From contig NZ_LT963430.1 of assembly GCF_900199405.1 (NCBI RefSeq), positions 62,001-126,000 on the forward strand: a DNA stretch of 64,000 bases. The letters run 5' to 3'. The notes beneath the pieces are model-generated. The model worked only from the letters and a program-made list of their open reading frames with translations. It did no database searches and was not told the DNA's origin. Below, in pieces: positions 28,291 through 52,270 of this stretch. Numbering within the stretch: position 1 is the stretch's first letter; each line of letters starts with the position of its first letter. Source of the stretch: Beduinella massiliensis. Its GTDB lineage: Bacteria; Bacillota; Clostridia; Christensenellales; Aristaeellaceae. Position numbers and translations under genes: made by a program.

Positions 28291-28317
28291 ACAGACAACT
28301 TCAAATGAAACCGCCAA

Positions 28318-28569
28318 GAAGAGAGGAGTACACGCCCTCGATTCATCGAAGCGAGCCGCGGAGAGTGAGAGCGCGGCATGATAGAAGCGTGGAATGGGCT
28401 TTTCGAGGGTCTTCCTGAAATACGAAGTAGGGAGGAACGGGGGAGCGAACCCGTTATCAGGTCGCAGCGCATGCTTGTGCGCGCAGAGTGGACCGAAAGG
28501 TCAATATGAGTGGTACCACGGATAGAAAAATCCGCCTCATGCTTTAATAAAAGCATGAGGCGTTTTTTT
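28318..28569 (+). promoter_or_regulatory. T-box riboswitch, probably tRNA-Tyr specific
   Basis: The T-box core GAGTGGTACCACGG lies at 28508-28521. A 13-bp terminator (CGCCTCATGCTTT at 28533-28545 with its complement at 28550-28562) is followed by seven T. The competing antiterminator pairs ATGAG (28506-28510) with CTCAT (28536-28540). Stem I has an AGTA (28327-28330) and a helix CCCTCGA/TCGAGGG. On the 3' side GAAA-TAC-GA (28417-28425) has the usual specifier context, which gives TAC (Tyr). The UGGU in the T-box would pair with an ACCA tRNA end (A73), as in tRNA-Tyr but not tRNA-Trp. A TGG at 28390-28392 is the rival specifier. Confidence 0.85.
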
Positions 28570-28622: not shown

Positions 28623-29597
28623 ATGAAAAAGCTGCTTTGCGTCCTGACTGCCCTTGCGATGATGATGACCGCCTGCCTTGCGCTCGCGGAGGAGAACTAC
28701 ACCATCGGCATCGCTCAATTCGCCGTACACGGCTCCTTGGACAACTGCCGCGAAGGCTTCCTGGCCGGGCTCGCGGAAAACGGCATCGTGGAAGGTGAAA
28801 ACCTGAAGGTCGAATACCAGAACGCACAGGCGGACATGGGCATCACCAACCAGATCGCCCAGCAGTTCGTGTCCGAAAAGGTCGATCTGATCTGCGCCAT
28901 CGCCACCCCGATCGCCCAAGCCTGCTTCAACGCTGCGGACGGCACGGGGATTCCGACGATTTACACTGCGGTGACCGATCCGGTCGCGGCCATGCTGGCC
29001 GCTGCGGACGGCACGCCGAGCGGCAACGCCACGGGCACCAGCGATACGCTGCCGATCGAGGCGCAGCTCAAGATGATCCGCGCGCTCATGCCGGACGCTG
29101 CAAAGATCGGCATCCTCTATTCCACCAGCGAGGTCAACAGCGAGAGCGCGATCAAGGAATACGAGGCGCTGGCCCCGAACTACGGCTTTGAAATCGTCGT
29201 TTCCGGCATCAGCGCCACCGCGGACATCCCGCTCGCGCTCGACTCCCTGCTGCCGAAGGTGGACTGCCTCACGAACCTCACGGACAACACCGTGGTTTCA
29301 TCTCTTGCCGTGCTGCTGGACAAGGCAGGCGCTGCGGGCAAGCCGGTCTTCGGCAGCGAGGTAGAGCAGGTGAAACTGGGCTGCGCGGCGAGCGAGGGCT
29401 TGGAGTACTTTGAACTGGGCAAGCAGACCGGCGCGATGGCCGCCAAGGTGCTCAAGGGCGAGGCAAAGGCTGAAGAGATCCCGTATGAAATCATCGCGGG
29501 CAGCAGCCTCTACGTAAACTACGAGGCACTCGCTGCGGTCGGCATCACCCTTCCGGAGAATATGACCGCGCGCGCTATCGACGTTTCCAAGTTGTAA
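28623..29597 (+). CDS. ABC transporter substrate-binding protein, TrpX family
   Basis: This is the periplasmic-type binding component of an amino-acid importer of the ABC_sub_bind (COG2984) family. The typical opening reads TIGIAQFAVHGSLDNCREGF, followed by GITNQIAQQFVSEKVDLICAIATP and AVTDPVAA. The signal peptide contains MMTAC, a possible lipobox, but a normal cleavage site LALA-EE is equally visible. At 324 residues the length is as expected. It is the first gene of a three-gene operon under the T-box. Family relatives are usually called tryptophan transporters; the leader here suggests tyrosine. No terminator separates it from the permease gene 177 bases on. Confidence 0.9.
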   Translation: MKKLLCVLTALAMMMTACLALAEENYTIGIAQFAVHGSLDNCREGFLAGLAENGIVEGENLKVEYQNAQADMGITNQIAQQFVSEKVDLICAIATPIAQACFNAADGTGIPTIYTAVTDPVAAMLAAADGTPSGNATGTSDTLPIEAQLKMIRALMPDAAKIGILYSTSEVNSESAIKEYEALAPNYGFEIVVSGISATADIPLALDSLLPKVDCLTNLTDNTVVSSLAVLLDKAGAAGKPVFGSEVEQVKLGCAASEGLEYFELGKQTGAMAAKVLKGEAKAEEIPYEIIAGSSLYVNYEALAAVGITLPENMTARAIDVSKL

Positions 29598-31425: not shown

Positions 31426-31458
31426 CGCGGGCCTCTGCTTCATTTTAATAGGAATTCT

Positions 31459-31497
31459 ATACAAAATCTCCGCTTTTGTGCGGAGATTTTGTATGTT
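31459..31497 (+). terminator. Intrinsic terminator of the T-box transporter operon
   Basis: A perfect 15-bp stem (ATACAAAATCTCCGC / GCGGAGATTTTGTAT) has a 6-base loop. The U-rich part lies within the 3' arm. A TATAAT at 31506-31511 directly after it is the likely -10 box of the next gene. Confidence 0.75.
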
Positions 31498-31553
31498 AAA
31501 AGTTGTATAATGAATGCATCTGGGTTATCCCTTGAAAATTCGGGAGGAAGCAT

Positions 31554-32948
31554 ATGATTTACGAAAAAAACCGTGTGAAGGATTTGAAGATCGCCTATGT
31601 GGGCGGCGGGTCGAGGGGTTGGGCGTGGGGATTCATGACAGACCTCACGAACGACGGACAGCTTTGCGGCACCGTCCGGCTCTACGACATCGACCGGGAG
31701 GCGGCCGAAAAAAACGCGCGGATCGGGCGCAGGCTGTCGGAGCATCCGGAGGCGAAGTCCCGGTGGAGCTATGAGGTCAGCGGTTCCCTGGAGGAGGCAC
31801 TGGCGGGCGCGGACTTCGTCGTCATCTCTATCCTGCCGGGCACGTTCGACGAAATGGAATCGGACGTTCACCTGCCTGAGCGCGTCGGCGTGTACCAGTC
31901 CGTTGGGGACACGGTAGGGCCAGGCGGTCTCGTGCGCGCCCTGCGCACGCTGCCCATGATGGCGGAAATCGCAAGAGCGGTCAGGGATTACGCGCCGAAT
32001 GCCTGGGTCATCAATTACACCAATCCTATGACCACGTGTATCCGAACGCTGTACGCCGTGTACCCTGAAATCAAGGCCTTCGGCTGCTGTCATGAGGTGT
32101 TCGGCACGCAAAAGCTTTTGTGCGCCATGCTCGAGGATCTCTGCGGCATCGCGGGCGTCGGGCGCGAGGAAATCAAGACCAGCGTCACCGGCATCAATCA
32201 CTTCACCTGGCTCACCAGCGCATCCTATCGGGGAACCGACCTGTTCCCGCTCTATCGAACGTTTGCGCAGAAATACCGCGAGAGCGGGTTCGTCAAGGGC
32301 AAGGACGACAACTGGATGAACAACTCGTTTGATTGCAGCCACAAGGTCAAGTTCGACCTGTTCCTGCGCTACGGGCTGATCGCCGCGGCGGGAGACCGGC
32401 ACCTGGCCGAATTCTTGCCGCCTTGGTACCTGAAAAACCCGGAGACAGCGCGTGCATGGGGCTTTTCGCTGACCCACGTCGCCTGGCGAAAGGAAGATCT
32501 CAAAAGGCGGCTGGCCCGGCAGGCGCGGCTGCTCAGCGGCGAGGAGGCGCTGGAGCTGAAGGGCTCCGGCGAGGAAGGGCATATGCTCATCAAGGCGCTG
32601 CTCGGCCTTGGAGACCTGGTCTCAAACGTCAACATCCCCAACCGGGGGCAGGTGGAAAACCTGCCGCTGGGCGCGATGGTGGAGACGAACGCGCTGTTCA
32701 GGCGGGACGAAATCAGTCCCGCGCTCGCGGGCGCGATCCCGGCGGGCATCGACGCGCTGGTGATGCGCCACGTGCTGGGGCAGGAAGCGACGGTGAAGGC
32801 GGCGCTTTCCTGCGACCGGGAGCTGGCGTTTAACGTATTTATGAACGACCCGCAGATGGGCGGCGTGGGCTTGGCGGACGGCAGGGCGCTGTTTGACGAC
32901 ATGATTCATAATACCCTGACCTACCTGCCGGAGGCCTGGAGGGCGTAA
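31554..32948 (+). CDS. Glycoside hydrolase family 4 (alpha-glucosidase/galactosidase type)
   Basis: This is an NAD- and Mn-dependent glycosidase acting in the cytoplasm by an oxidation-elimination mechanism. The Rossmann motif IAYVGGGSRGW is near residues 13-23, then YDIDREAA, VISILPG, NYTNPMT, the metal-site GCCHEVFG and the GINHFTW block. At 464 residues it fits GH4. GGGAGG lies before the ATG, and a TATAAT lies 42 bases upstream. It is a single gene. GH4 covers alpha-glucosidases, alpha-galactosidases, alpha-glucuronidases and 6-phospho-glycosidases; Cys-His in the metal motif leaves the substrate open. Confidence 0.9.
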   Translation: MIYEKNRVKDLKIAYVGGGSRGWAWGFMTDLTNDGQLCGTVRLYDIDREAAEKNARIGRRLSEHPEAKSRWSYEVSGSLEEALAGADFVVISILPGTFDEMESDVHLPERVGVYQSVGDTVGPGGLVRALRTLPMMAEIARAVRDYAPNAWVINYTNPMTTCIRTLYAVYPEIKAFGCCHEVFGTQKLLCAMLEDLCGIAGVGREEIKTSVTGINHFTWLTSASYRGTDLFPLYRTFAQKYRESGFVKGKDDNWMNNSFDCSHKVKFDLFLRYGLIAAAGDRHLAEFLPPWYLKNPETARAWGFSLTHVAWRKEDLKRRLARQARLLSGEEALELKGSGEEGHMLIKALLGLGDLVSNVNIPNRGQVENLPLGAMVETNALFRRDEISPALAGAIPAGIDALVMRHVLGQEATVKAALSCDRELAFNVFMNDPQMGGVGLADGRALFDDMIHNTLTYLPEAWRA

Positions 32949-39889: not shown

Positions 39890-39998
39890 CTCTTCCAGTG
39901 CGTGCAAATGATGGCAGAATTGTGAAATATAGGCCTGGGAAATGCGCCGGCGGATGGGGGCGGGATTGCAAACGCAAGGCAGAACATTTTCCCTTTTA

Positions 39999-40027
39999 TT
40001 GCACGCGCTATGAGCCTGTGATATGAT
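39999..40027 (+). promoter_or_regulatory. Promoter of the AraC/MutL-like gene pair
   Basis: TTGCAC, a 17-base spacer and TATGAT, 41 bases before the AraC start codon. Confidence 0.72.
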
Positions 40028-40067
40028 GAACCCGTATAACAAGTAAAACAGGACGGAAGGAATGTAA

Positions 40068-41027
40068 ATGAGCGATAGAGAAGCGCTTTCTTTATTTTTT
40101 AATCATCTTTGCCCCTATATCCGGCGCGCCTGGGACGGAACCGTTTATGAGGGCTGGCATCTCAACGAACGGGTCATATTCGATTATGAAATTATCTACA
40201 TCATGTCTGGAAGCGCGACCGTCACGGTAGGCAGCGAGGCCTATGAAGCGCAGCAGGGAGACTTGTTCTTTTTGAAGCCACTCATTCCGCATTCCATTAC
40301 CCCTCGTCCCGGAACACCTTTTCGGCAGCCCCATATTCACTTTGACATGTTTTATCAGGACAACAGCGAGGAGGTCTACGTGTCGTTCTGGAACCGGGAC
40401 GAGTTGGGGAGCGACATCCGCCTGGCGCGCGACGACGGGTACTGGCTTTCCGCGCTCGAGATTCCGGACAAGATCGTGGTCGAAGACCCCGCCTGCGTCG
40501 AAGGGCTGATGATGAAGATCATCGACCGCGCAGAAAGCCCTGACCCGGTGGATGCGCTTCTCAACAAAGCGTACTTGCTGGAGCTGCTGGCCTATTTGTT
40601 CGGCGGCATCGTGAAAAAGCGAGACCGGGAAGCGCTGGACGCGGATGACCTGGCGGAGATCGAACAGAATTTGGAACGGGCTAGGCAGTACATCCTCGAT
40701 CACGTCAACCGTAGCATCACTACGGAGGAGGTGGCCCGTGAAGCAGGGTTCAGCAAAGGTTATTTTGCCAAGGTATTCAAGGAACGCTATAATCAGTCGC
40801 CGATAACGATGCACGCGCGGCTGCGGATGGAACGGGCCAAACAAATGCTGATCTACTCGTCCATGTCCGTGACGGCTGTGGCGCAGGAACTGGGCTTTGA
40901 CAACATCCACGCATTTTCCCGGTCGTTTAAAGAGATGTATCAGCTTTCACCCAAGGCGTATCGGCAAAAACATGCCGTAGCGACGGATGAAACGTCCGTA
41001 GGGGAGGAAACACGCAATGACGAATGA
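40068..41027 (+). CDS. AraC-family regulator with cupin sensor
   Basis: This is a one-component sugar regulator. An N-terminal cupin-like domain (IIYIMSGSATVTVGSEAYEAQQGDLFFLKP and PHIHFDMF) occupies about 30-120. A helical linker and the AraC tandem helix-turn-helix follow at about 205-305 (TTEEVAREAGFSKGYFAKVFKERY and VTAVAQELGFDNIHAFSRSFKEMY). The length of 319 is slightly above average. Its last 11 bases overlap the next gene, so the two proteins are translationally coupled. It probably controls the sugar transporter operon that starts about 1.7 kb downstream. Confidence 0.93.
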   Translation: MSDREALSLFFNHLCPYIRRAWDGTVYEGWHLNERVIFDYEIIYIMSGSATVTVGSEAYEAQQGDLFFLKPLIPHSITPRPGTPFRQPHIHFDMFYQDNSEEVYVSFWNRDELGSDIRLARDDGYWLSALEIPDKIVVEDPACVEGLMMKIIDRAESPDPVDALLNKAYLLELLAYLFGGIVKKRDREALDADDLAEIEQNLERARQYILDHVNRSITTEEVAREAGFSKGYFAKVFKERYNQSPITMHARLRMERAKQMLIYSSMSVTAVAQELGFDNIHAFSRSFKEMYQLSPKAYRQKHAVATDETSVGEETRNDE

Positions 41028-42585
41028 ACGAATCGTCAATATTCCGAAGCGAATGAATACGCCGCGGTGCATCGTGGAGCTCTTCTTCGCCATCGCGCAG
41101 GCCTTTTCAATAAAGAGCCTTTCCCTGAGCGTGCGCAACGGGGGGCTGTCACTCATCCGCATTTCTGCGATGGGAAAAGGCGAATATGGCCCTGCCCTGC
41201 GTGATGTCATGAGCAGACTTTTGGACGGCGAGAAACAGGCTGATTATGGAGGCGCGCGATCATGGGAGGAAGCGTTGATCTACCTTTGTGGTTGTTCGGA
41301 ATGGCGGTTTAGCTGTTACGACGAGCGGGATGGCCTGTGGCATGAGGCATCCAACATTCAAGGACAGCGGGAGGAGGCCTGCTATGCGGGGGAACCTGGG
41401 TATGAGCTTACGGTTATCAACGCGTTTTCAAGCGTACCGGAAATCTACCGGAATCTGGAGCGCGATTACATCCAGACGATGAACATCGTACACGAAGCGC
41501 GCCGCTTTTGCCTGGAAAACCCGCAGATCGCCTTACGGCTGGAAAACAACGGGAGACCGTTTTTCCGTACGCCTGGTGACGGCTCGATGGATGGGTGTCT
41601 TACCCATTTGTTTTCAAGGATGATCACGGCGCAACTGCAAAGGCTTGAAGAGGCGTTTGCGGGCGGTGTCGCGCACGCGTATTTTATGACGGCGGCGGCC
41701 TCGAGCGTAGAACGCGACCTGGCGGTCGTCCGTTTAAACGGTAGGGCTGTCCGTGAAGAATGGGTGCTGTGTGAGCTGCAAAAGCGTTATCAAAACGATT
41801 TTTCCGCGTGCCACTTCGTATTCGTGCTCGACGTGGAAAGTCCAAGCCTCCGCGAGCTTCCCTACGATTTATTTCTTGCATTTGTTGGGACGCTGCCCAT
41901 TCAGGAAATTCCCGTGCAGCGACGAGAGAAGGAAGAGCACGAGGAGAGAGAACCGTACGTGAACCTGCCGGCATTCCTTTCTCCAGGACACATGGAGCAA
42001 GCGGTGCTTCCGGACGTACGGGGAAAGCTCGAAGTGGAAAAGGTATTCGGGCGCTTCTTTCTGATTCGGCAGGAGCAGTGGCTCTATCTTTTTGACTATA
42101 TGGAAGTGCTCACACGGTTTCGGATGACGGAAATTCAGCAGGAGTATCAAGGCGGAAAGATTCTGACGACGGCGTGTTACCTGGAAATTGCGGAAAAGCC
42201 GGGGGAGCGCGGGGTGGATGCGGCCTTTAAAGAACGATGCCGGGCATTAGGATTCACGATCGAGGAGGACGGCGAGGGCCGGAAGATCGTGCGCTCCTAT
42301 CCCTATTATTTAAAGGCCGGGATGGTACCTGCAATCGCAGAAAACCTGCTGAGCTGTAGGGGAACGGCGCATGCAGAGCCTTCACACGAGGAGTTACTCT
42401 ATCTGATTGCCTATAGCATTGTTTCTGCTGAAAACAGCAACCGAAGCACGGCGGCCTCGGAGAACGTCGTCATGCTGATGGAAATGGCCCATCGGATGCT
42501 GCAAACCGGCTTCCTGCCCCGGGAGAGCGTCCCCATTTATCGGATTGGATGCAATGCGTATGACCGAAGGGACCGGGAAAAATGA
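41017..42585 (+). CDS. Degenerate MutL-like protein (no ATPase or nuclease motifs)
   Basis: The whole chain follows the MutL layout. NGGLSLIRISAMGKG (41-55) lines up with the GHKL strand before DNGxG. SWEEALIYLCG (82-92) matches the RGEALxSI region. LTVINAFSSVPEIYRNLERD (131-150) matches the TxVxVxxLFxNxPARxKFL block. IALRLENNGRPFFRTPGDG follows, and RLNGRAVREEWV (239-250) matches the VNGR motif. A C-terminal domain ends RCRALGFTIEEDGEGRKIVRSYP. The catalytic residues are gone: ELVENSLDAG becomes ELFFAIAQAF (Asn to Ala25, Asp to Gln28), DNG becomes AMG (Ala51), and the DQHAxxER endonuclease motif becomes DYMEVLTRF (360-368). The frame is intact over 522 residues and overlaps an AraC gene. Its role is unknown; a scaffold or regulator is inferred. 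Confidence 0.72.
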   Translation: MTNERIVNIPKRMNTPRCIVELFFAIAQAFSIKSLSLSVRNGGLSLIRISAMGKGEYGPALRDVMSRLLDGEKQADYGGARSWEEALIYLCGCSEWRFSCYDERDGLWHEASNIQGQREEACYAGEPGYELTVINAFSSVPEIYRNLERDYIQTMNIVHEARRFCLENPQIALRLENNGRPFFRTPGDGSMDGCLTHLFSRMITAQLQRLEEAFAGGVAHAYFMTAAASSVERDLAVVRLNGRAVREEWVLCELQKRYQNDFSACHFVFVLDVESPSLRELPYDLFLAFVGTLPIQEIPVQRREKEEHEEREPYVNLPAFLSPGHMEQAVLPDVRGKLEVEKVFGRFFLIRQEQWLYLFDYMEVLTRFRMTEIQQEYQGGKILTTACYLEIAEKPGERGVDAAFKERCRALGFTIEEDGEGRKIVRSYPYYLKAGMVPAIAENLLSCRGTAHAEPSHEELLYLIAYSIVSAENSNRSTAASENVVMLMEMAHRMLQTGFLPRESVPIYRIGCNAYDRRDREK

Positions 42586-42747
42586 CGCTTTTATGGCATG
42601 GGACGCCATGAAAGGCCGCGTAAATTGAGAGACATTTGATAAAAACAACGTTTTTTTTGCTACATACACCGCGCTTCCTGTGCGATAAAGTATAGGCAGA
42701 AACAGCGCCCGGAACGATGGGGCGCAAGAACAGAAAGGATGGGGAAG

Positions 42748-44040
42748 ATGAAAAAGACAGTCGCTTTCGTATTGAGCTTGCTGCTTTGCCTGTCGGCGAT
42801 GCCGGTCTTCGCGGCGGAGGACGCCCTGCCCGTGAACGACATGAAAGGCGAGGTGACGTTTTCCTTCTGGGGGACGCCGGAAGAGGTCGAGATTCAGGAA
42901 AAAATCACGGCGGAGTTTAACAAGTACTATCCGAACATCAAGGTAAACCTGGATCACGTCTCTGGCGCTGGGGACTTCAACACGGCGATTCTGACCCGTA
43001 TGAGCGGCGGAAACGCACCCGACGTCTTCTACCTGGGCGAGATCTCCGTGGAGATCTTCCGAGACAAGGGACTGCTATGCGATATGCTGCCCTTCGCTCA
43101 GCGCGACAACCTGGACCTTGGCGATTACTGGGACGGCGTGCTGTCGCCGGCCGGCTACAATGAAGGGCATATGTGGGCGTTCCCTAAGGACTGCACGCCC
43201 TACATGATCTACTACAACAAAGATCACTTTGACGAACTCGGCCTCGAATACCCCAGTGCGGACTGGACGTTCGAGGATTTTACCGAAACCGCGAAGAAGC
43301 TGACGGTGACCGCAGACAACGGCAAGACCACGCGCTATGGCTACTGGGCAGAACATGGCTGGTGCGCCTGGTTCGCCGCAGCGTACAAGAACGGCGGAGC
43401 GATCATGAACGAGGACTGCACGCGTCTGGTCGCGGACCCGAAGACCGCGGAAGCGCTGCAGTGGTACTTCGACCTGGCGAACGTGCATAACGTTTCGCCG
43501 GCACCGGAGGCGCAGACCTCGATGGGCGGCAGCGCGACCGATGCTTTCATGTCCGGCCTGACCTCTATGATGATCGGCGGCCGCTTCGCGACCTACTGGC
43601 TCAAGGATTGGGACGGCAATTATGATTACACCCTGTTCCCCTTTGGGGAGGGCGTGTATCAGCCTCTGCAGTTCGTCGCGCTGGGCATCCCGGAGGCAAG
43701 CAAGAACAAAGACGCCGCCTGGGAATTCATCAAGTTTTACTGCGGCAAGACAGGCCAGGAGATCAACTCCGCCAGCGGCATGGGCCTGCCGGTCATGAAG
43801 AGCGTACACGAATCCGGCGTATGGCTCCAGGAGTGGGAGACGGAGAACAATCGTGAAATGCTGACGGCGCAGTTCAACAACACCAAGGACCTCCCCTTCC
43901 ACCCCGACTGGGCGAAGCTGATCGACGACGTGTTCTACCGCAACCTGATGGAAGCGGCCGGAGGCCTGAAGAGTGCGGCGGAGGCGCTCGACCTGGCAGT
44001 CGCTGAAGGAAACGCTTATCTGGAGAACAACGGGAAATAG
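42748..44040 (+). CDS. Sugar ABC transporter substrate-binding protein (family 1)
   Basis: This is the solute-binding component of a CUT1 carbohydrate importer. The signal peptide (about 1-21, ending VFA) lacks a lipobox cysteine. The mature protein begins with VTFSFWGTPEEVEIQEKITAEFNKYYPNIKV, a typical family 1 opening, and continues with NAPDVFYLGE, MWAFPKDCTPYMIYYNKDHFDELGL and DAFMSGLTSMMIGG. The length of 430 is typical for monosaccharide or small oligosaccharide binders. I start at the second ATG (42748), where AAAGG is correctly spaced. It follows the MutL-like gene after 162 bases. Downstream GH172 suggests furanose-type sugars. Confidence 0.92.
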   Translation: MKKTVAFVLSLLLCLSAMPVFAAEDALPVNDMKGEVTFSFWGTPEEVEIQEKITAEFNKYYPNIKVNLDHVSGAGDFNTAILTRMSGGNAPDVFYLGEISVEIFRDKGLLCDMLPFAQRDNLDLGDYWDGVLSPAGYNEGHMWAFPKDCTPYMIYYNKDHFDELGLEYPSADWTFEDFTETAKKLTVTADNGKTTRYGYWAEHGWCAWFAAAYKNGGAIMNEDCTRLVADPKTAEALQWYFDLANVHNVSPAPEAQTSMGGSATDAFMSGLTSMMIGGRFATYWLKDWDGNYDYTLFPFGEGVYQPLQFVALGIPEASKNKDAAWEFIKFYCGKTGQEINSASGMGLPVMKSVHESGVWLQEWETENNREMLTAQFNNTKDLPFHPDWAKLIDDVFYRNLMEAAGGLKSAAEALDLAVAEGNAYLENNGK

Positions 44041-44118
44041 GTACCGGCCGCGGGGAGGGGAATCGCCCCTCCCCGCGCCGGTTTCACGAACCAGTTTCAT
44101 CGTAGAAAGGGTGAGCTT

Positions 44119-45030
44119 ATGCGGCCCGCGCGCACGAACGGCCCCGGGACGGGGATGCTTTCCGCCAGAAAGGACGAGCAATTCTGGGGCTATACCTTTA
44201 TCCTCCCCAACTTCCTGGCGACAGCCGTTTTTCTTTTCATTCCCCTGATCTATTCGCTGTACATCTCCTTTATGGACTGGGATATGATTAAGCAGCCGGA
44301 GTTTATCGGGCTCGCCAATTACACCGTAAAGCTCGCGCAGGACACGCAGTTCTTCCTCGCGCTCAAGAATACGGTCGTCTATTCAGTCGTCAGCATTCCG
44401 CTCGGCATTGCGCTGGCGATCTTTGTTGCCTACCTGCTGTCCGGAAACCTGAAGGGTAACTCGGTGTTCCGCAGCGTCGTCTTCATGCCGGTTATCATCT
44501 CTACCGTGGCGGTATCGATGATCTGGAAGTGGTTGCTCAACGGCGATTACGGCGTGGTGAACTATCTCTTGTCCCTCGTAGGCCTACAGGGCGTACACTG
44601 GCTTGGCGATGCCAAGTACGCCATGGGGACGATCATCGCCATTTCGATCTGGAAAAACCTCGGGTTCAACGTCGTCATCCTGATCGCGGCGTTCAAGGAC
44701 GTGCCATCCAGCTACTTCGAGTCAGCGGCGCTTGACGGTGCGAATGAATGGCAAAAGCTGACCCGCATATCGCTGCCGCTGATCGCGCCCTCGGTCTTCT
44801 TCGTCACGATCATGTCGGTCATCAATTCCTTTCAAGTCTTCGACCTCATTTATAACCTTACGCTGGGCGGGCCCAACGGCGCCACGACGGTGCTCTATTA
44901 CCTCGTCTATCAAAATGCGTTCAGGTTCTTTGATATGGGATATGCCTCCGCGCTTTCGTGGATCGTGTTCGCGATCATATTCCTCTTTACGATGCTCCAG
45001 ATGCGGATGAATAAAGAGCAGAGCATCTGA
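44119..45030 (+). CDS. Sugar ABC transporter permease, first subunit
   Basis: A six-helix permease of the same importer (MalF/UgpA-like). FILPNFLATAVFLFIPLIYSLYISFMDWDM is the typical first helix region, and the EAA loop is FESAALDGANEWQKLTRISLPLI. The length of 303 is normal. GGGTGAG precedes the ATG. It lies 28 bases before the second permease. Confidence 0.94.
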   Translation: MRPARTNGPGTGMLSARKDEQFWGYTFILPNFLATAVFLFIPLIYSLYISFMDWDMIKQPEFIGLANYTVKLAQDTQFFLALKNTVVYSVVSIPLGIALAIFVAYLLSGNLKGNSVFRSVVFMPVIISTVAVSMIWKWLLNGDYGVVNYLLSLVGLQGVHWLGDAKYAMGTIIAISIWKNLGFNVVILIAAFKDVPSSYFESAALDGANEWQKLTRISLPLIAPSVFFVTIMSVINSFQVFDLIYNLTLGGPNGATTVLYYLVYQNAFRFFDMGYASALSWIVFAIIFLFTMLQMRMNKEQSI

Positions 45031-45058
45031 GGCGACAAGCAGAAAGGAGAACGCGGAT

Positions 45059-45892
45059 ATGGGTAAAGACATGAGCAGGTCTGCGAAGGCGCTGAGCTAT
45101 CTGTTTTTGATCATCCTTTCCTTCGTCATGATCCTGCCCTTTTTCTGGACGGTCGTCACTTCGTTCAAGCAGCAGACGGAGATTTTGACGTGGCCGCCCC
45201 AGTTCCTTCCGTCCAAGCTGTACTTGGGGAATTATCAATACGTCATCGAAAAGATCAAGATCGGGACGATGTTCGTCAATTCGCTCTACATCGCCGTGCT
45301 CACGACGGTGGGGCAGCTCGTGTTTTGCTCTCTGGCGGGCTTTTCGTTCGCAAAGCTCCGCTTCCGATTTAAGGACGGGCTGTTTAAGGCGTACCTTGCG
45401 ACGATGATGGTGCCGGCGATGCTGACACTGATCCCGCGTTATGTCATCATGAAGAACATCGGCATGGTGGATACGCACATGTCGCTGATCCTTCCGGCGC
45501 TGTTTGGAGGTCCCTTCGGCGTCTTCCTCATGCGCCAGTTTTACATAGGGCTTCCCGACGAGCTGATGGAGGCTGCGCGCATCGACGGGGCGAGCTATCC
45601 CTATATCTTCGCTAGAATCTATACGCCGCTGACGCGTCCCATTTTGTCGACGCTGGCCGTTTTCAGCTTTATGGGCTCTTGGAACGACTTCCTTTGGCCG
45701 CTGATTACGATCCAGTCCAACGGGCTCAAGACGCTGCCCATCGGCCTCGCGTCGTTTCAAAGCCTGTACGGCATCAAGTACAGCCTGCTGATGGCGGGCG
45801 CGGTGCTGGCAATGCTGCCGGTTCTCGTCGCCTTCCTCTTCGCGCAGAAGCAGTTTATCGAAGGAATCGCCGTTACCGGCCTGAAAGGATGA
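45059..45892 (+). CDS. Sugar ABC transporter permease, second subunit
   Basis: A MalG/UgpE-like permease of the same importer. ILPFFWTVVTSFKQQTEILTWPP is typical of the N-terminal region, and the EAA loop is MEAARIDGASYPYIFARIYTPLT. It ends FIEGIAVTGLKG as usual for this family. The length is 277. AAAGGAG lies upstream. No ATPase gene follows, so a shared MsmX-type ATPase elsewhere is needed. Confidence 0.94.
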   Translation: MGKDMSRSAKALSYLFLIILSFVMILPFFWTVVTSFKQQTEILTWPPQFLPSKLYLGNYQYVIEKIKIGTMFVNSLYIAVLTTVGQLVFCSLAGFSFAKLRFRFKDGLFKAYLATMMVPAMLTLIPRYVIMKNIGMVDTHMSLILPALFGGPFGVFLMRQFYIGLPDELMEAARIDGASYPYIFARIYTPLTRPILSTLAVFSFMGSWNDFLWPLITIQSNGLKTLPIGLASFQSLYGIKYSLLMAGAVLAMLPVLVAFLFAQKQFIEGIAVTGLKG

Positions 45893-45897
45893 TGCAC

Positions 45898-46971
45898 ATG
45901 CTTCCGATCGTTTCCGCCTCCGTAGAACCCCGCTGCAGCGTGATTACGCAAAGCGACGGAGACCTCTTTCCCTGTGCCTGGGCCGACGACGGCGCGCTGT
46001 ACGCAGCCAACGGGGACGGCAAGGGCTTTGACCTGTCTGCGGAGTGGTGCGACATCGTAGTGAACCGCATCGACGGCGGCATCGGCGCGCTGAAGGGCGT
46101 GCGGCTTACCGGGCAGGAGGGCGTGGGCAGCGTGTTCGCCGACCCCGCGCACTACAACAGGAAACCCACGGGGATGGCCTGCGTGGACGGCGTGCTGTAC
46201 CTCGCGGTGCAGAACCTCAACAAGGACCCCGGACAGTTTGGGTTCGACGACGTGCCCTGCGCGACGATCTGCCGCTCGGACGACAAGGGGAAGACCTGGA
46301 CTTGGGACCGGGAAAAGCCAATGTTCGACGGCTACCGCTTCACGACGCTCATGTTTCTCGACTACGGCAAAAACTACGAAAACTGCCCCGACGACTACGT
46401 GCTCACGTATGGCATGGATGACAACTGGCGGGCTTCCATCAGCGGCAAGGTGCGGGATCCACAGGAGCTGTACCTGGCGCGAGTGCGAAGAGATCAGATC
46501 ATGAATCGCGAGGCTTGGACATTTTTTTGTGGTATGGAGGGCGACTCACCGCTGTTTTCAAAGGACATAGGCCTTAGAAAGCCCGTGCTGACCGATACCC
46601 GGCGGGTGCTCGTCACGCCGCCGGAAGGCAAAGGCAGCCCGAAGCAGAGCATGTCGGTTATCTCGCAGGGAAGCGTCGTATACAACAAGCCGCTGGGGCG
46701 CTACCTGTACACCTCCTGGACGGAAAACACGTTTGAGTTTTACGAAGCCCCGGCCCCTTGGGGCCCGTTCCGGCTTTTTCTCTCGTATGACTTCGGCTTC
46801 TATCCTTGGACCGAGGAACGTTATGGAGGCTACGCTACGGTGATTCCCTCGAAGTTCATCAGTGAGGACGGAAAGACGATGTACGTGCAGTCAAATACCT
46901 TTGTGGGCGGCACGCACAAATATGCGTTCAATCTGCGAAAGCTCACGGTGGAAACCGGCGAAGCGAGATAA
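45898..46971 (+). CDS. DUF4185-like beta-propeller protein
   Basis: A cytoplasmic protein (no signal peptide) of 357 residues that resembles the DUF4185/sialidase-like propellers. Repeated blades show CAWADDGALYAANGDGKGFD, GVLYLAVQN, CRSDDKGKTWTWDREKP with an Asp-box-like motif, and GRYLYTSWTENTFEFYEAPAPWGPF. It starts 5 bases after the permease gene; three in-frame ATGs are close together, and the third has AAAGG at 9 bases, so I chose it. Context between a sugar transporter and a GH172 enzyme suggests carbohydrate processing, perhaps as a glycosidase. Its catalytic residues are not assigned. Confidence 0.7.
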   Translation: MLPIVSASVEPRCSVITQSDGDLFPCAWADDGALYAANGDGKGFDLSAEWCDIVVNRIDGGIGALKGVRLTGQEGVGSVFADPAHYNRKPTGMACVDGVLYLAVQNLNKDPGQFGFDDVPCATICRSDDKGKTWTWDREKPMFDGYRFTTLMFLDYGKNYENCPDDYVLTYGMDDNWRASISGKVRDPQELYLARVRRDQIMNREAWTFFCGMEGDSPLFSKDIGLRKPVLTDTRRVLVTPPEGKGSPKQSMSVISQGSVVYNKPLGRYLYTSWTENTFEFYEAPAPWGPFRLFLSYDFGFYPWTEERYGGYATVIPSKFISEDGKTMYVQSNTFVGGTHKYAFNLRKLTVETGEAR

Positions 46972-46991
46972 CGAAAGGGCGGTATATAGAG

Positions 46992-48068
46992 ATGATGGAT
47001 CAAATTTCGAAGGTGCTGAACTGGAAATCGCGCTCGATTTCACCGGAACATCTTTCCGGAGAGCCGGGAAAGGGCGGTATGACGCCGCTGGAGATGGGCA
47101 GCGCGCGCAGCGCAGCACGAGCGCTGGGCACCGGATGGAAGGTCAACCCCTATTTCGACATTCCCGCAGGGCAGACGTTCGAGCTGGCGAACATCGCGGG
47201 AAGCGGCGCGATCAAACATATCTGGATGACGCCGACGGGTAAGTGGCGCCTGTCCATCCTGCGCATGTACTGGGACGGGCAGGAAATACCCAGCGTCGAA
47301 TGCCCGGTCGGGGACTTTTTCTGCATGGGCTGGCAGGAATACGCGCAGGTGACCTCGGCGGCCGTGTGCGTAAACCCCGGCAGCGCGTTCAACTGCTACT
47401 GGGATATGCCTTTTCGCGCACAGGTGCGCATTACGCTGGAAAACCTGGACGACGTGCCAATGCGCATCTATTATCAGATCGACTACGCGCTGTACGACCA
47501 GCCGGAGGAAATTGTCTATTTCCATGCGCAGTTTCGCCGCGTGAATCCGCTGCCCTATAAAGAGGTCTACACCATTCTGGACGGCGTCCAGGGAAAGGGG
47601 CATTACGTGGGCACCTATATGGCCTGGGGTGTCAACAACAACGGATGGTGGGGAGAAGGTGAAATCAAGTTCTATCTGGACGGAGACAAGGAATATCCCA
47701 CCATCTGCGGAACGGGTACGGAGGACTACTTCTGTGGTTCCTACGATTTTGAGGATCCCCGTACGCACGACCGCTACCTGCCCTTCACCACGCCCTTTGC
47801 AGGGCTTCCGCAGGTGATCGAGCCCGATCGCCTCTACGCCAGCCAGTTCCGCTTCGGCATGTACAGGTGGCATATCACCGACCCCATCTGCTTTGAACGG
47901 GAGCTGCGTGTGACGATTCAGGCGCTTGGATGGTTCAATATGGGCAAGCCGGACTGTCGCTATCTGCCGCTGAAGGACGACATCGCTTCTGTCGCCTTCT
48001 GGTATCAGGCGCAGCCCGCAAGGTCGGTACCCAGGCTCCCGGAGCGTGACGAACTGGAGGTCATTTAA
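46992..48068 (+). CDS. DUF2961 protein, glycoside hydrolase family 172
   Basis: The DUF2961 hallmarks are all present: GSGAIKHIWMTP near residues 69-80, LRMYWDGQEIPSVECPVGDFF, CYWDMPFRAQVRITLEN, YYQIDYALYD and CGTGTEDYFCGSY. GH172 members act on furanosides (difructose dianhydride, D-arabinofuranosides, fructofuranosides) as trimers. The length of 358 is usual for the small form. There is no signal peptide, so the substrate would be imported first by the transporter encoded upstream. It is the last gene of the operon and is followed by a strong terminator. Confidence 0.88.
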   Translation: MMDQISKVLNWKSRSISPEHLSGEPGKGGMTPLEMGSARSAARALGTGWKVNPYFDIPAGQTFELANIAGSGAIKHIWMTPTGKWRLSILRMYWDGQEIPSVECPVGDFFCMGWQEYAQVTSAAVCVNPGSAFNCYWDMPFRAQVRITLENLDDVPMRIYYQIDYALYDQPEEIVYFHAQFRRVNPLPYKEVYTILDGVQGKGHYVGTYMAWGVNNNGWWGEGEIKFYLDGDKEYPTICGTGTEDYFCGSYDFEDPRTHDRYLPFTTPFAGLPQVIEPDRLYASQFRFGMYRWHITDPICFERELRVTIQALGWFNMGKPDCRYLPLKDDIASVAFWYQAQPARSVPRLPERDELEVI

Positions 48069-48072
48069 GAAT

Positions 48073-48105
48073 AAACGGGCCCGCGCCTTCGCGCGGGCCC
48101 GTTTT
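48073..48105. terminator. Strong terminator between convergent operons
   Basis: A 13-bp perfect stem (AAACGGGCCCGCG / CGCGGGCCCGTTT) has a 6-base loop followed by T. It can work in both directions between the GH172 and pepF genes. Confidence 0.88.
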
Positions 48106-48112
48106 ATATGAG

Positions 48113-49795
48113 TCAGCCTTTTATGAGCTCCCTGCAAAAGGGAAGCAGCGCGTCAAAGCACTTCTCATCGAACGGGGAGAGCAGGCCGCACGCGCGGACG
48201 ATCTGCGGAAAGGGCTGCGTGCCCGCGAAGTCTACGAAACGCAGGTATCGCTGAAAGGCTCCCTCCGGGTCCTTTTGCGACTCCGCGTAGAAGAGCAGCG
48301 CCTGCGTCTGCGCGAGCGCGTAGTCGATGAAGTAGAAGGGCATCGCGTAGATGACGGACATGTCCTGCCACTGCGACCCCCAGGAGGCAAAGGGCAGGTC
48401 GCTCGTGTCGAGGTAGGGGTTGTATCGCAGGTAGATGCGCGCATAGGCGGCGTTTCGCTCGGAGGGAGTCATCTCCGGATGATCGTATATTTCGTGCTGA
48501 AATTCGTCGCCCACGCAGATGGAGCAAATGAAGTAGGCGGCGTATTCGATCTGCTTGATCCGGTACTTGCGCAGGTCCTCCCGAGTGAAGAACGGCTCCA
48601 GATAGGGGAGCGTGAGCAGCTCCATCGACGTGGAATGCGTCTCCGCGATCTCCTGCGTGCCGCTTCGCAGGAGATACGGCACGCGTGGATTCCGGCGCGC
48701 GCGGCAGGCCGCGAGCGCGTGGCCGAACTCGTGCACCAGCACCTCCAGGTCTGTTTGGTCGCCCGCGAAGTGGCCGAAGATGAAGTCGGTGTTATAATCG
48801 GTCAGTTCGACGCAGAAGCCGTCGTAGGCGACCTTTCCCTTTCGGTCAAAGAGATCGAACATGCCGTTTTGGCGCAGCTCGTCAAAGTAAGCGCCCGCCT
48901 CGCGGTTCATCTGGTGGAAGACGTCTCCGACCGCGCGGACGAAAGCGTCGCCCGTGAGCTGAAGGCGCGGATTGCCGTCTGCGAAGCGCAGCGGAGAGTC
49001 GTACAACCTAAAGGAGGGTACGCCGAGGCGCTTGCGCTGATTCTCCTTGATTTCGCACACGAAGGGCACCCATTTTTCGAGCACCTGCGCGCGGAATGCC
49101 TCGATCTGTTCGCGTCCGAAGCCAAAGCGGCTCGCGTACTTCATGTCCGTATAGCTGCAAAAGCCCAGGCGGCGCGCCTGCTCCGTGCGGTTCTTCACCA
49201 GCGCGTCAAAGATCTCGTCCAGCTCCGCGGCGTGCGCCTCGTACCAGGCGTTTGTCGCGCGCACGGCTTCCCGCCTGCGCGCGCGGTCGGTATCGGCATA
49301 ATGGACGGACATGGAGGAGAGGGGCAGTTCCTCTCCGCAGTAGGAGACGGTCGCCTGGCCCGTGAGGTCCGTATAGCGCTGACACAGCGCCTGCTCGTCT
49401 GCGCAGAGGTCGAGAACCGAGTCGTCCGATAGGCGCGCTTCTGCCTCGACCTTTTCAAAGAAAAAGGAGCCGAGGGAAGCGGTGAGCTCGCGGCGGAAGG
49501 GAGAGGCGGCGATCGAGCGGTAGAGTTTCTGGACAAAGAGGTCGAGCCGGGGGCTGTTTTGCCCGACATAGGCCATCTCCCCGGCGTAAAATGCATCGGC
49601 GGTATTCAGAAAATAGCGAAGCTGCGCAAGGGTTGAGAACGTGCTCGCATGCTGTATCAGCTCTTCGCCTTCCGAAAGCAGGGCGAGCTGCGCTTCGGGG
49701 CTCTTTGCGGCAGCGATCTGCTCGCTCAGCGATTCAAGTGTCCTGCAGGCGGCGTCCATGTCGAAGCGCGCGTAGGAAATCTGGTGAAAGTTCAT
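48113..49795 (-). CDS. Oligoendopeptidase of the M3 family (PepF-like)
   Basis: A cytoplasmic zinc metallopeptidase that degrades oligopeptides. The catalytic motif VLVHEFGHA (HExxH) lies near residues 354-362, and a downstream Glu in EIAETHSTSMELL supplies the third zinc ligand. The length of 560 is in the range of M3B enzymes. GGGAGGT precedes the ATG. It is the last gene of a minus-strand group with two small membrane proteins. Confidence 0.93.
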   Translation of the reverse strand: MNFHQISYARFDMDAACRTLESLSEQIAAAKSPEAQLALLSEGEELIQHASTFSTLAQLRYFLNTADAFYAGEMAYVGQNSPRLDLFVQKLYRSIAASPFRRELTASLGSFFFEKVEAEARLSDDSVLDLCADEQALCQRYTDLTGQATVSYCGEELPLSSMSVHYADTDRARRREAVRATNAWYEAHAAELDEIFDALVKNRTEQARRLGFCSYTDMKYASRFGFGREQIEAFRAQVLEKWVPFVCEIKENQRKRLGVPSFRLYDSPLRFADGNPRLQLTGDAFVRAVGDVFHQMNREAGAYFDELRQNGMFDLFDRKGKVAYDGFCVELTDYNTDFIFGHFAGDQTDLEVLVHEFGHALAACRARRNPRVPYLLRSGTQEIAETHSTSMELLTLPYLEPFFTREDLRKYRIKQIEYAAYFICSICVGDEFQHEIYDHPEMTPSERNAAYARIYLRYNPYLDTSDLPFASWGSQWQDMSVIYAMPFYFIDYALAQTQALLFYAESQKDPEGAFQRYLRFVDFAGTQPFPQIVRACGLLSPFDEKCFDALLPFCRELIKG

Positions 49796-49816
49796 GCGTA
49801 CCTCCCGGTAATCGTG

Positions 49817-50356
49817 TTATCGCGCGCCGCGCATCAGACGGGGACGCACTTTTTTGACGTAATAGAGTGCGAAGACGTCCAGCGCGCGGTCGTAGACGAG
49901 CATCGTGAAGTTCGCGAGTAGCACCATCGCGGCGGTCATGATCCGCGTTGCGCTCTGATAGTCGGCCGCGATGTCCTCCATGTGCAGGACGAAAAGGAGA
50001 AAGGCGTACATCGCGCCGATCGCCGCGTTGAAGAGCACCAGCTTGAGGGCAAGGCGCAGGGGCCGCGCTGGAATTTTCTGCAGCCGGGGCTTAAGCAGCG
50101 GGTAATAGCCGAAGAAGACGACCAGAAACGCCGCCTCCTTGTCCGGGCCCATCAGCACGGAAAGCAGGGCGACCGCGATATACGCCGCAAGCCCCAGCTT
50201 CGTTCCGCACTCCATCACGATGGGAATGAACAGGATGCCCACGAGCACCGGGCAGCAATAGGTAGCCAGCGGGATCAGCCCGCCCATCATCATCACGACG
50301 ACGCTGAGCGCGCAGAGCATGCCGCACAGTGCCATTTGACGCGTCTTCTTACTCAT
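49817..50356 (-). CDS. Integral membrane protein, possibly an ECF-type S component
   Basis: A 179-residue protein of about five or six hydrophobic segments. The N-terminus ALCGMLCALSVVVMMMGGLIPLATYCCPVL looks like the opening of ECF-transporter substrate-binding subunits, where a short basic tail precedes the first helix. The identification is weak, and no energising ATPase is near. The start overlaps the end of the preceding gene region with GAGGAA as ribosome site. It sits 21 bases before pepF, so the two are probably co-transcribed. Confidence 0.6.
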   Translation of the reverse strand: MSKKTRQMALCGMLCALSVVVMMMGGLIPLATYCCPVLVGILFIPIVMECGTKLGLAAYIAVALLSVLMGPDKEAAFLVVFFGYYPLLKPRLQKIPARPLRLALKLVLFNAAIGAMYAFLLFVLHMEDIAADYQSATRIMTAAMVLLANFTMLVYDRALDVFALYYVKKVRPRLMRGAR

Positions 50357-50363
50357 GAGCGAT

Positions 50364-50867
50364 TCATTCCTCGATCAGCGTATTGGGTACCGCCCAGCCT
50401 TCGGGCGAAGCGATGCGGCGGTAGGTATCGAAAGAGCCGCCGGGCCCTTTGAGAAAGTAGGAGAAACTGTCGGTCGCCTGAAGCTCTACGCCCACGGGGC
50501 CGCTCGTCTCCAAGATCGTGAGCGTCGCCTTGGGGGCGGAGGTCCCCTCCTCGGTAAATGTGAACACGATGCGGCCGTCCTTGACGGCGTTCTTCGTCAC
50601 GCTGACGCGGGTGTTGTTGGTCGTGAGCAGGTTGTAAAGCGGACTCAGGTTTTCATAGGCGAGCCGCGTCTCTACGTCTCCATTCTGCGCACAGACGGTG
50701 AGCGCGGGATCGCCGGTGAGCGAGGCGAGCTCCGTCTTAAAGCGATTGAACGTGTACGACGCGGACAGCATCCGCAGGACGGCGATGATGAGGAGAACGA
50801 GGAGCAGCAGGGAGACGGACAGGAGCATGATAAATCCCTTGGGTTCGGCGCGTCTCATCTTTGTCAT
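50364..50867 (-). CDS. Membrane-anchored protein of unknown function
   Basis: A single N-terminal membrane helix (about 12-33, rich in Leu and Val) precedes a roughly 130-residue extracellular domain with alternating beta-strand pattern (GRIVFTFTEEG, KATLTILETS, GVELQATDSFSYFLKGPGGSF). The ATG at 50867 has AGGAGG at correct spacing; a further 43 open codons upstream were rejected. It lies 7 bases before the next membrane protein gene. No family is recognised. Confidence 0.68.
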   Translation of the reverse strand: MTKMRRAEPKGFIMLLSVSLLLLVLLIIAVLRMLSASYTFNRFKTELASLTGDPALTVCAQNGDVETRLAYENLSPLYNLLTTNNTRVSVTKNAVKDGRIVFTFTEEGTSAPKATLTILETSGPVGVELQATDSFSYFLKGPGGSFDTYRRIASPEGWAVPNTLIEE

Positions 50868-50941
50868 GTGAATGCCTCCTTTAAATTGGTATGGCACCCT
50901 TTCGACGCGCGCCGTCCGATTACCTGCTGAACGCGGCAAAC

Positions 50942-50962
50942 AAAAAGCGGGCAATGCCCGCT
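50942..50962 (-). terminator. Terminator downstream of pepT and the second repeat copy
   Basis: On the minus strand a GCGGG/CCCGC stem is followed by TTTTTG. Another hairpin (GGCAGGGGCC/GGCCCCTGCC at 51019-51043) lies directly after the pepT stop but has no U-tract. Confidence 0.65.
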
Positions 50963-50965
50963 CCG

Positions 50966-51014
50966 GGCCATCGGCAAAGCCGATGGCCCCGTGCAAAATG
51001 AAGGTTCATTTTAC
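50966..51014. repeat. Two-hairpin dispersed repeat, copy 2
   Basis: Hairpin A is GGCCATCGGC-AAA-GCCGATGGCC (50966-50988). Hairpin B is GTGCAAAATGAA/TTCATTTTAC (50991-51014). It is nearly identical to 32955-33006 and here sits between the pepT stop and its terminator. Confidence 0.7.
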
Positions 51015-51049
51015 AGAAGGCAGGGGCCGCATGGGCCCCTGCCAAAATA

Positions 51050-52270
51050 TCAGTCCTTGGAGTAGAGCCCTACGAGCGCTACGAGCATGCGCGTGCAGGC
51101 GTCCATGTCCTCCACGGCGATGTGTTCAAAGCGTCCGTGGAACGCGTAGCCCCCCGTGCAGAGGTTCGGGCAGGGCAGCCCCATGTAGCACAGGCGCGCG
51201 CCGTCCGTACCGCCACGTACCGGTACGTCGCGCGGCTCCATGCCCGCGGCGCGCATCGCTGAGCGCGCGTTTTCGACCAGATGAAAGTGCGGGCGTATCA
51301 TTTCCGCCATGTTGCGATACTGCTCCTTGATCGTAAGCTTCACCGTGCCAACACCATAACGGTGGTTCAGAATCTTTTCAATATGGCGAAGCTGTTGCTT
51401 GCGCACCTCGAAATGCGCGGCGTCGTGCTCACGCACGATGTAGCGCAGGCGCGCCTTTTCTACGTCGCCCTGCATGTCGGTCAGGTGGAAGAATCCCTCG
51501 CGGTCCTCGGTGTCGCGGGGTGTTTCGCCCGCGGGCAGCATCGCGTTTATTTCCATGGCCACCAGCGAGGCGTTGATCATCGTATCCTTGGAGCTGCCGG
51601 GGTGCACGCTCATGCCCTGCACGTCAAAGCACGCGCCGCAGGCGTTGAAGTTTTCGTAGCCCAGCTCGCCCAGGTCGCCGCCGTCCACGGTGTAAGCGAA
51701 GGCCGCGCCGAACCCCTCCACGTCGAAGTGTTCGATGCCCTCGCCGATTTCCTCGTCCGGTGTGAAGGAGACGGCCAGACGGCAATGCGGCATGCCGGAG
51801 CGCACGATTTCTTCGCAGGCGGTGAGAATCTCCGCGACACCCGCCTTGTCGTCCGCGCCCAGCAGGGTCGTCCCGTCGGTGGTGATGAGCGTCTTGCCCT
51901 TGAGCGAGGCGAGCGTAGGGAACTGCGCGGGCGAGAGCACGTCTCCGGAGCCCGCGAGCACGACCTCGCCGCCGTCGTAATTTTCGACGATCTGCGGACG
52001 CACGTCCTTGCCGGAAATGTCGGGCGCGGTGTCCATGTGGGCGATGAGGCCCAGACAGGGCAGGGCCTCCAGCCCCGGCGTCGCGGGGAGGACGCCGTAA
52101 ACGAAGCCGTCGTCCGATACCCTCACGCCCTCAAAGGAGAGGGAGCGCAGTTCGTCCGCGAGCTGCGCGGCCAAGTCAAGCTGGCCGGGGGTAGAGGGGG
52201 TGACGCCGGTCGTCTCGTCGGAGGTGGTGTCGACACGGGCATAGCGGAGCAGGCGTTCGAATGCGCGCAT
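51050..52270 (-). CDS. pepT: Peptidase T (tripeptide aminopeptidase, M20)
   Basis: A di-zinc aminopeptidase for tripeptides. Metal-site and catalytic motifs appear in order: IAHMDTAPD, LLGADDKAG, SFTPDEEIGEG, VDGGDLGEL and PVRGGTDGARL. At 406 residues it has the usual length. The ATG at 52270 follows GAAGGAA; 12 further codons upstream were rejected. It is separated from the rlmH gene by 32 bases in the same direction, and its transcript would carry the dispersed two-hairpin repeat in its 3' region. Confidence 0.95.
   Translation of the reverse strand: MRAFERLLRYARVDTTSDETTGVTPSTPGQLDLAAQLADELRSLSFEGVRVSDDGFVYGVLPATPGLEALPCLGLIAHMDTAPDISGKDVRPQIVENYDGGEVVLAGSGDVLSPAQFPTLASLKGKTLITTDGTTLLGADDKAGVAEILTACEEIVRSGMPHCRLAVSFTPDEEIGEGIEHFDVEGFGAAFAYTVDGGDLGELGYENFNACGACFDVQGMSVHPGSSKDTMINASLVAMEINAMLPAGETPRDTEDREGFFHLTDMQGDVEKARLRYIVREHDAAHFEVRKQQLRHIEKILNHRYGVGTVKLTIKEQYRNMAEMIRPHFHLVENARSAMRAAGMEPRDVPVRGGTDGARLCYMGLPCPNLCTGGYAFHGRFEHIAVEDMDACTRMLVALVGLYSKD

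Follow-up and report, generated by a model that had tools for sequence, protein, structure and literature searches.

Here we report a gene of Beduinella massiliensis that encodes a full-length homologue of MutL in which, by alignment, the key residues of the ATP site, the lid, the endonuclease, the zinc site and the DNA cleft are lost. The gene (41017-42585, plus strand; 522 aa) lies in a stretch of 64,000 nt that was analysed as a whole (the window; assembly GCF_900199405.1, contig NZ_LT963430.1, positions 62,001-126,000 of the forward strand), where it overlaps the gene of an AraC-family regulator and precedes genes for a sugar ATP-binding cassette (ABC) transporter and a GH172 enzyme. Because the same genome also has a normal miaB-mutS-mutL-miaA block, the product is read as an enzyme-dead pseudoenzyme that is extra to the normal MutL. 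The gene is an orphan, present in one genome in the searches made, and is tentatively taken as an accessory of the AraC regulator.

The reading frame comprises 522 codons without an internal stop. Random codons of the gene's base composition would be expected to hold about 23 stops per 522, and the probability of a stop-free run of this length by chance is 7e-11 with that composition and 3e-8 with the composition of the window. The ATG sits within the AraC gene (40068-41027, plus strand; AraC_binding cupin and HTH_18 domains in Pfam), giving an overlap of 11 bp, and inspection of the sequence places a GGAGG resembling a ribosome-binding site at 41003-41007, on the plus strand and 9 nt 5' of the ATG. 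The gene is real, and the AraC and MutL-like genes are probably co-transcribed. The next gene, for the transporter's substrate-binding protein, follows after a gap of 153 bp, in which a consensus scan found no plus-strand promoter or terminator site and one terminator-like site on the minus strand.

Profiles of the MutL family match both the N-terminal and the C-terminal part of the protein. TIGR00585 (NCBIfam mutl) matches with an E-value of 1.5e-16 and 60.4 bits, best over residues 119-273, and Pfam MutL_C matches residues 343-466 with 9e-06 and 25.9 bits, barely over the cut-off of 25. The TIGR00585 score falls short of the equivalog cut-off of 180 bits, whereas the resident MutL of the same genome scores 527 bits. 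Comparison with five canonical MutLs by hhalign gave a probability of 98.8% (E 1.3e-16) over residues 32-267, against 0.04% for the neighbouring AraC protein as negative control. The reference alignment held 41 canonical MutLs, including the resident one, out of 43 examined (the short rows L025 and L031 were dropped). The protein is 16-22% identical to these (about 19% to the resident MutL), and the median identity among them is 42%. Of the 102 columns with a conservation of 90% or more, 33 are kept in the protein, among them G42, G43, R48, G53, G55, E85-L87, P141, P169, G187, N241, R243, G412, G419 and P429; many of the kept residues, often Gly or Pro, are probably structural.

The predicted protein begins with a degenerate GHKL ATPase domain (residues 16-118, approximate limits; 41062-41370), with 11 of 44 columns of at least 90% conservation kept over residues 1-118. 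A transducer domain (residues 119-290; 41371-41886), assigned by profile match and alignment, a short linker (residues 291-336; 41887-42024), delimited by alignment, and a dimerisation-type MutL_C domain without endonuclease motifs (residues 337-522; 42025-42582) follow, all on the plus strand. The linker has 46 residues, against 80-286 in the 41 canonical MutLs. An AlphaFold model built on an alignment of eleven MutLs reached a predicted local distance difference test score (pLDDT) of 69 and a predicted template modelling score of 0.53, with a pLDDT of about 30 across most of the linker. VIA-align superimposed it on the N-terminal domain of Bacillus subtilis MutL (9n2k) with a Z-score of 24.4 (285 residues aligned, root-mean-square deviation 4.3), well above the best other GHKL proteins (gyrase, topoisomerase VI; Z 14.4), and residues 337-522 on the C-terminal domain of NgoL (3ncv) with a Z-score of 14.1 (177 residues aligned, root-mean-square deviation 4.6). 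The model, which rests on a MutL alignment, thus shows the N-terminal fold of GHKL plus transducer and the C-terminal dimerisation-domain fold.

The key residues for catalysis have not been retained; the motif names and the catalytic and other roles given to the sites are those that we presume to hold for MutL proteins. At the ATP site, the alignment shows IAAGEV of IAAGEVVERP to be deleted, the Asp of DNG to be A51, GFRG to be RSWE and the transducer Lys to be D284. Without gaps, the Asn and Asp of ENSIDAG become I26 and A29 and the glutamate of KEL becomes L22; a register shifted by one needs two compensating gaps and would retain that Glu as E21, and the Asn and Asp are lost in either register. 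None of the endonuclease-class motifs (DQHAxxER, ACKxA, CPHGRP, FxR) is intact: the region of DQHAxxER reads DYMEVLTR, with only D360 and R367 surviving, ACKxA has become SIVSA and CPHGRP VPIYRI, and both the F and the R of FxR are missing. NVHPxK and QxLLVP are likewise replaced, by RELPYD and KILTTA. By sequence, the protein belongs to the MutL family; by function, it fails the defining tests made here.

Nor does the protein present the positively charged cleft of a DNA clamp. The net charge of its transducer domain is -8, against -2 to +10 in the 41 canonical MutLs. According to the available part of the source, residues R162, R266 and R316 in the cleft of Escherichia coli MutL matter for DNA docking (PMC9530208); their counterparts here are E148, E248 and L293 (E. 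coli chain numbering). The resident MutL has Lys, Ala and Ala at these positions, and hence only the first is a loss relative to its own kin.

An earlier sequence-only reading had described an intact frame of 522 residues that overlaps an AraC gene by 11 bases and stands before a sugar ABC transporter and a GH172 enzyme, which is borne out by the sequence and by Pfam. The MutL landmarks that it listed (NGGLSLIRI, EAL at 85-87, a block beginning LTVINAF, and LNGR) are at the positions claimed, the homology that it proposed over both halves agrees with the profile, hhalign and model results, and a significant MutL profile match exists, the lack of which it had named as counting against the idea. 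It gave the Asn and Asp of this ATP-site motif, which it wrote as ELVENSLDAG, as Ala25 and Gln28: both are indeed lost, and its residues were off by one in register. DQHAxxER has changed as it said, to DYMEVLTRF, with the first Asp and the last Arg surviving. Its statement that every motif for ATP binding or nicking is altered is right for the key motifs, and the IAAGEV deletion and the changes in NVHPxK, ACKxA, CPHGRP and QxLLVP are losses beyond those that it noted. The alignment agrees with an enzyme-dead MutL; the suggestion of a DNA clamp is weakened by the transducer charge, the cleft residues and the short linker.

A canonical mutL is present elsewhere in the genome (4.18 Mb, three contigs), in the miaB-mutS-mutL-miaA block, where the neighbouring MiaB, MutS and MiaA exceed their NCBIfam cut-offs. 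Orthologues of the MutL-like protein were sought in overlapping genome sets, each of which includes the B. massiliensis genome. Matches were found in 102 of 150 relatives (limit 1e-3), with two rows occurring only in its own genome and, in one frame, in genome G010, and in five of 308 genomes of the family (1e-9), 22 of 391 of the class (1e-11), two of 396 of the order (1e-13) and one of 329 of the phylum (1e-13), namely its own. The top match outside its own genome (4.9e-16) is a frame of 655 aa that reads as a canonical MutL. The 43 MutL loci examined as proteins, with the resident one among them, all match the resident MutL, and the remaining matches were judged by frame length only. No orthologue was found at these limits outside its own genome in any of the five sets; under the stricter limits of the family, class, order and phylum sets, a very diverged orthologue may have been passed over.

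A peptide-pattern search of genomes and viral contigs found no orthologue with strict 8-mers, which are weak for distant kin. In viral contigs, an alignment of the MutL-like protein with five canonical MutLs found only two loci, which read as canonical MutLs (L061, L063), and the resident MutL alone found no match. A tblastn search gave six weak matches in plasmids, annotated as mutL, and one in phages, in a record without annotation. TIGR00585 was searched at 1e-8 in 70 genomes, its own included, of which 65 had a match. More than one row occurred in nine other genomes. In four of them a single frame accounts for the rows, and in G030 the rows are two pieces that adjoin. Those of G036, G108 and G115 come from two contigs each, match separate parts of the profile and were taken as one split gene; in G098 and G101 the additional match spans about 50 columns (profile 28-77), the range where a histidine kinase of the B. 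massiliensis genome matched. A second MutL was not recognised in the 69 other genomes, where the extra rows were judged without being read as proteins, and none of these genomes had a row resembling that of the MutL-like protein. In a tree, the end branch of the MutL-like protein has a length of 10, and no conclusion was drawn from its untrustworthy placement near class-level MutLs.

The gene is part of an 11.1-kb island (39911-51059) that, by blastn, the two same-genus genomes searched (loci of G001 and G002) lack at this site. In both, the left flank (about 75% identity) runs to 39910 and is followed, after 15 bp, by the sequence from 51060 onward. The G + C content is 57.5% in the island and 61.5% and 64% in the flanks. 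The island ends have no direct repeats of 9 bp or longer and one inverted match of 9 bp, and no integrase was found among the open reading frames (ORFs) given to Pfam. The genes after the MutL-like gene, all on the plus strand, encode the sugar ABC transporter substrate-binding protein (42739-44040; SBP_bac_1, 4.2e-34), two ABC permeases (44119-45030 and 45059-45892; BPD_transp_1, 2.6e-16 and 7.8e-17), a DUF4185-like protein (45889-46971, start set by eye; 2.8e-08, under the Pfam cut-off) and the GH172 (DUF2961) enzyme (46992-48068; 8.8e-95). The G + C content at third codon positions (GC3) is 0.675 in the AraC gene and 0.629 in the MutL-like gene, the lowest of ten island ORFs measured; it is 0.75-0.81 in the five sugar genes and 0.775-0.86 in 14 of 15 ORFs outside the island, the exception (31440-32582; 0.564) being perhaps no coding frame. 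The absence of the MutL-like gene from everything else searched makes its gain likelier than its loss; this is less clear for the right end of the island, which holds an M3-type peptidase and a DUF2232-like gene with ordinary GC3. PADLOC found no defence-system match, and a PHROG search gave one weak match (2.1e-5) to an uncharacterised PHROG of 597 positions. A scan of the intergenic regions for AraC sites found short repeats only.

The reading that we favour, with some reserve, is that of a non-catalytic MutL scaffold that most likely serves as an accessory of the AraC regulator in this lineage. The protein would still fold as a MutL and dimerise via its C-terminal domain; ATP binding, DNA nicking and closure as a DNA clamp would be beyond it, and it would act solely through protein contacts. 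The most likely target would be the AraC regulator encoded by the overlapping gene, through which it could adjust how strongly the sugar-transport and GH172 genes downstream are expressed; it would have been added late, in this lineage only, to a regulator that works elsewhere without it. The full-length homology, the predicted fold of both halves, the 33 conserved columns kept while most motif residues have changed, the tight overlap with AraC and the good ribosome-binding site speak for this reading. So, as weak evidence, does the low GC3 common to the AraC and MutL-like genes, as if they had arrived as a pair. Simple decay would hardly have left the frame open at an identity of 16-22%, given the stops expected in random codons of its composition.

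Several results weigh against it, chiefly those from relatives of the AraC regulator. Three such relatives (31-36% identity) were found at 1e-30 in 120 genomes, and no MutL-like gene was seen beside them. An alignment of four members was then compared with 84,980 species genomes, which gave 147 stretches, of which 101 were confirmed and the best 80 kept (three of these are the loci of the other alignment rows). Flanks of 6 kb were taken on either side, as far as the contig reached; 15 of the 80 loci fall short of 12 kb, and a distant neighbour could be cut off there. These loci hold 6,071 frames of 60 aa or more, none of which matches the MutL-like protein at E-values up to 10; a MutL profile gave one weak match (E 0.008, over 37 columns), to a frame of 407 aa that reads as a histidine kinase. 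The conserved neighbourhood of an AraC co-regulator was thus not found, since none of the 80 best relatives has a MutL-like neighbour in the fetched flanks, from which it would appear that the AraC regulator does not need the MutL-like protein. The link between MutL and AraC that had been proposed from the sequence is therefore not supported by comparison; as for the pairing of a sole mutL with unconserved neighbours that had been named as telling against it, the neighbours are indeed not conserved and the gene is not the only mutL. A promoter-like site within the AraC gene (40765-40793, plus strand; 11 of 12 matches, consensus scan only), about 220 bp before the MutL-like ATG, could supply a separate message, the region having three such sites against 1.8 expected by chance. 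No orthologue was found from which selection on the gene could be gauged. The single-sequence fold of the protein is poor (pLDDT 40), and the fold match to MutL may count as support and is no independent proof, because the model alignment was made of MutLs.

The same 80 loci have a GH172 gene in 67 cases (27-68% identity; 46 at 40% or more); the other neighbours are a substrate-binding protein in six, permeases in 30 and 32, and a DUF4185-like protein in none. Given these counts for GH172 and for the MutL-like gene, the association of AraC with GH172 is widespread and the MutL-like gene an addition to it. At eight further GH172 loci (three in the same genome, five elsewhere), nothing matched the MutL-like protein, the substrate-binding protein or the DUF4185-like protein; distant permeases occur at three of them and a distant match of AraC type at three.

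Among the alternatives, the gene might be a passing relic: a copy of MutL would have drifted where DNA is mobile or evolves fast and then come on the island by chance, with no selected role. Its occurrence in one genome only, the lack of a conserved neighbour among AraC relatives, the lost enzyme motifs and the failure to recognise a second MutL in the 69 other genomes would fit such a history, which we nevertheless consider rather doubtful: the frame of 522 codons is intact, a ribosome-binding site and start are placed within the AraC gene, and neutral drift to such a distance should have produced stops. It is improbable that the GHKL pocket has been repurposed as a sensor of a small molecule, such as a sugar, that signals to the AraC protein. 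GHKL domains of histidine kinases work with AraC-type response regulators, which offers a loose analogy, and the gene adjoins the AraC gene and the sugar transporter with the GHKL fold retained in the model; however, no ligand site is identifiable, and the AraC protein already carries its own cupin domain.

The protein could also be an antagonist or modulator of the resident MutL, a dead partner that forms a C-terminal heterodimer and lowers mismatch repair when the sugar island is expressed. The match of its C-terminal fold to MutL and the presence of canonical MutS and MutL would allow this, and the available parts of two sources provide precedents: yeast Mlh2, without endonuclease motifs, pairs with Mlh1 and causes a repair defect when overexpressed (PMC4014439), and MLH2/hPMS1 are dominant mutators (PMC7730388). 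We regard this role as unlikely, however, given only about 19% identity to the resident MutL, changes in QxLLVP and the cleft residues that make it unlikely to follow MutL to DNA, and an island in which nothing was seen that points to repair. Extended to a mutation switch controlled by carbon source, in which the pseudo-MutL, produced together with the AraC regulator, would pair with the resident MutL and poison mismatch repair whenever the sugar genes are expressed, making the mutation rate depend on diet, the idea becomes very improbable.

Compared with known systems, the protein shares with bacterial MutL (TIGR00585; 9n2k, 3ncv) the order of GHKL, transducer, linker and MutL_C and, in the model, the fold; bacterial MutL differs in keeping the ATPase, lid, endonuclease, zinc-site and DNA-cleft residues and the long linker. 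Of the known kinds, the eukaryotic Mlh2/PMS1 accessory protein comes nearest, and we know of no loss of ATP-binding residues in Mlh2. Yeast Mlh2 and human PMS1 (MutL-beta) are likewise described, in the part of the source available, as MutL homologues without endonuclease motifs that are accessory to a working MutL, but Mlh2 is a widely conserved partner of Mlh1 that Msh2 complexes recruit (PMC4014439), whereas the window protein is an orphan. The mutL of Wolbachia phage WO (WD0509) is also an extra mutL in a genome with a chromosomal copy, and it too lies in a mobile region close to the gene of a transcription regulator; it differs in being phage-borne and present in several strains, is not called dead in the available parts of the sources (PMC9203015, PMC12558409), and is likened here by description. 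SspH and other single-domain HATPase regulators of Streptomyces are GHKL-type proteins that affect transcription outside a kinase, but SspH has 142 aa and the HATPase domain only, and its function was abolished by mutation of N54 or D84, which match residues lost in the window protein (PMC9137472, available part). The AraC-GH172 neighbourhoods of Paenibacillus, Cohnella and Clostridia have the same type of AraC with GH172, none with a MutL-like gene, and differ from the window in that GH172 lies on the strand opposite AraC in 65 of the 67 loci; in the window both are on the same strand. Open-licence literature, searched by title and start of abstract, yielded no paper on a bacterial MutL that is catalytically dead or on a MutL-AraC system.

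The MutL-like protein would be a natural test of the MutL scaffold without ATP or DNA, as Mlh2/PMS1 are for nicking in eukaryotes, and a tie to either the AraC regulator or the resident MutL would connect carbon metabolism with a DNA-repair fold. As it stands, this is one gene in one genome, a real oddity with a putative role.

Some further observations were made. The AraC type of the window is linked to GH172 clusters in Paenibacillus, Cohnella and Clostridia. The B. massiliensis genome has four more GH172 genes (contig C3, 536102, 552357, 3419460 and 2359593) that are 51-72% identical to the window copy; the settings of three of these were compared and differ from that in the window. Single in-frame TAG codons are reported in an AraC relative (L050; G019:C127:8476-9336) and in a canonical mutL (G004:C112:2599-4446) of two family members, which may reflect an error, a pseudogene or recoding. 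For the M3-type peptidase gene within the island (48113-49795), a search of 39 other genomes found relatives, 30-35% identical, in 12. Elsewhere in the window, a T-box leader (28305-28542; Rfam 94.1 bits, cut-off 93) lies upstream of an ORF at 28623-29597.

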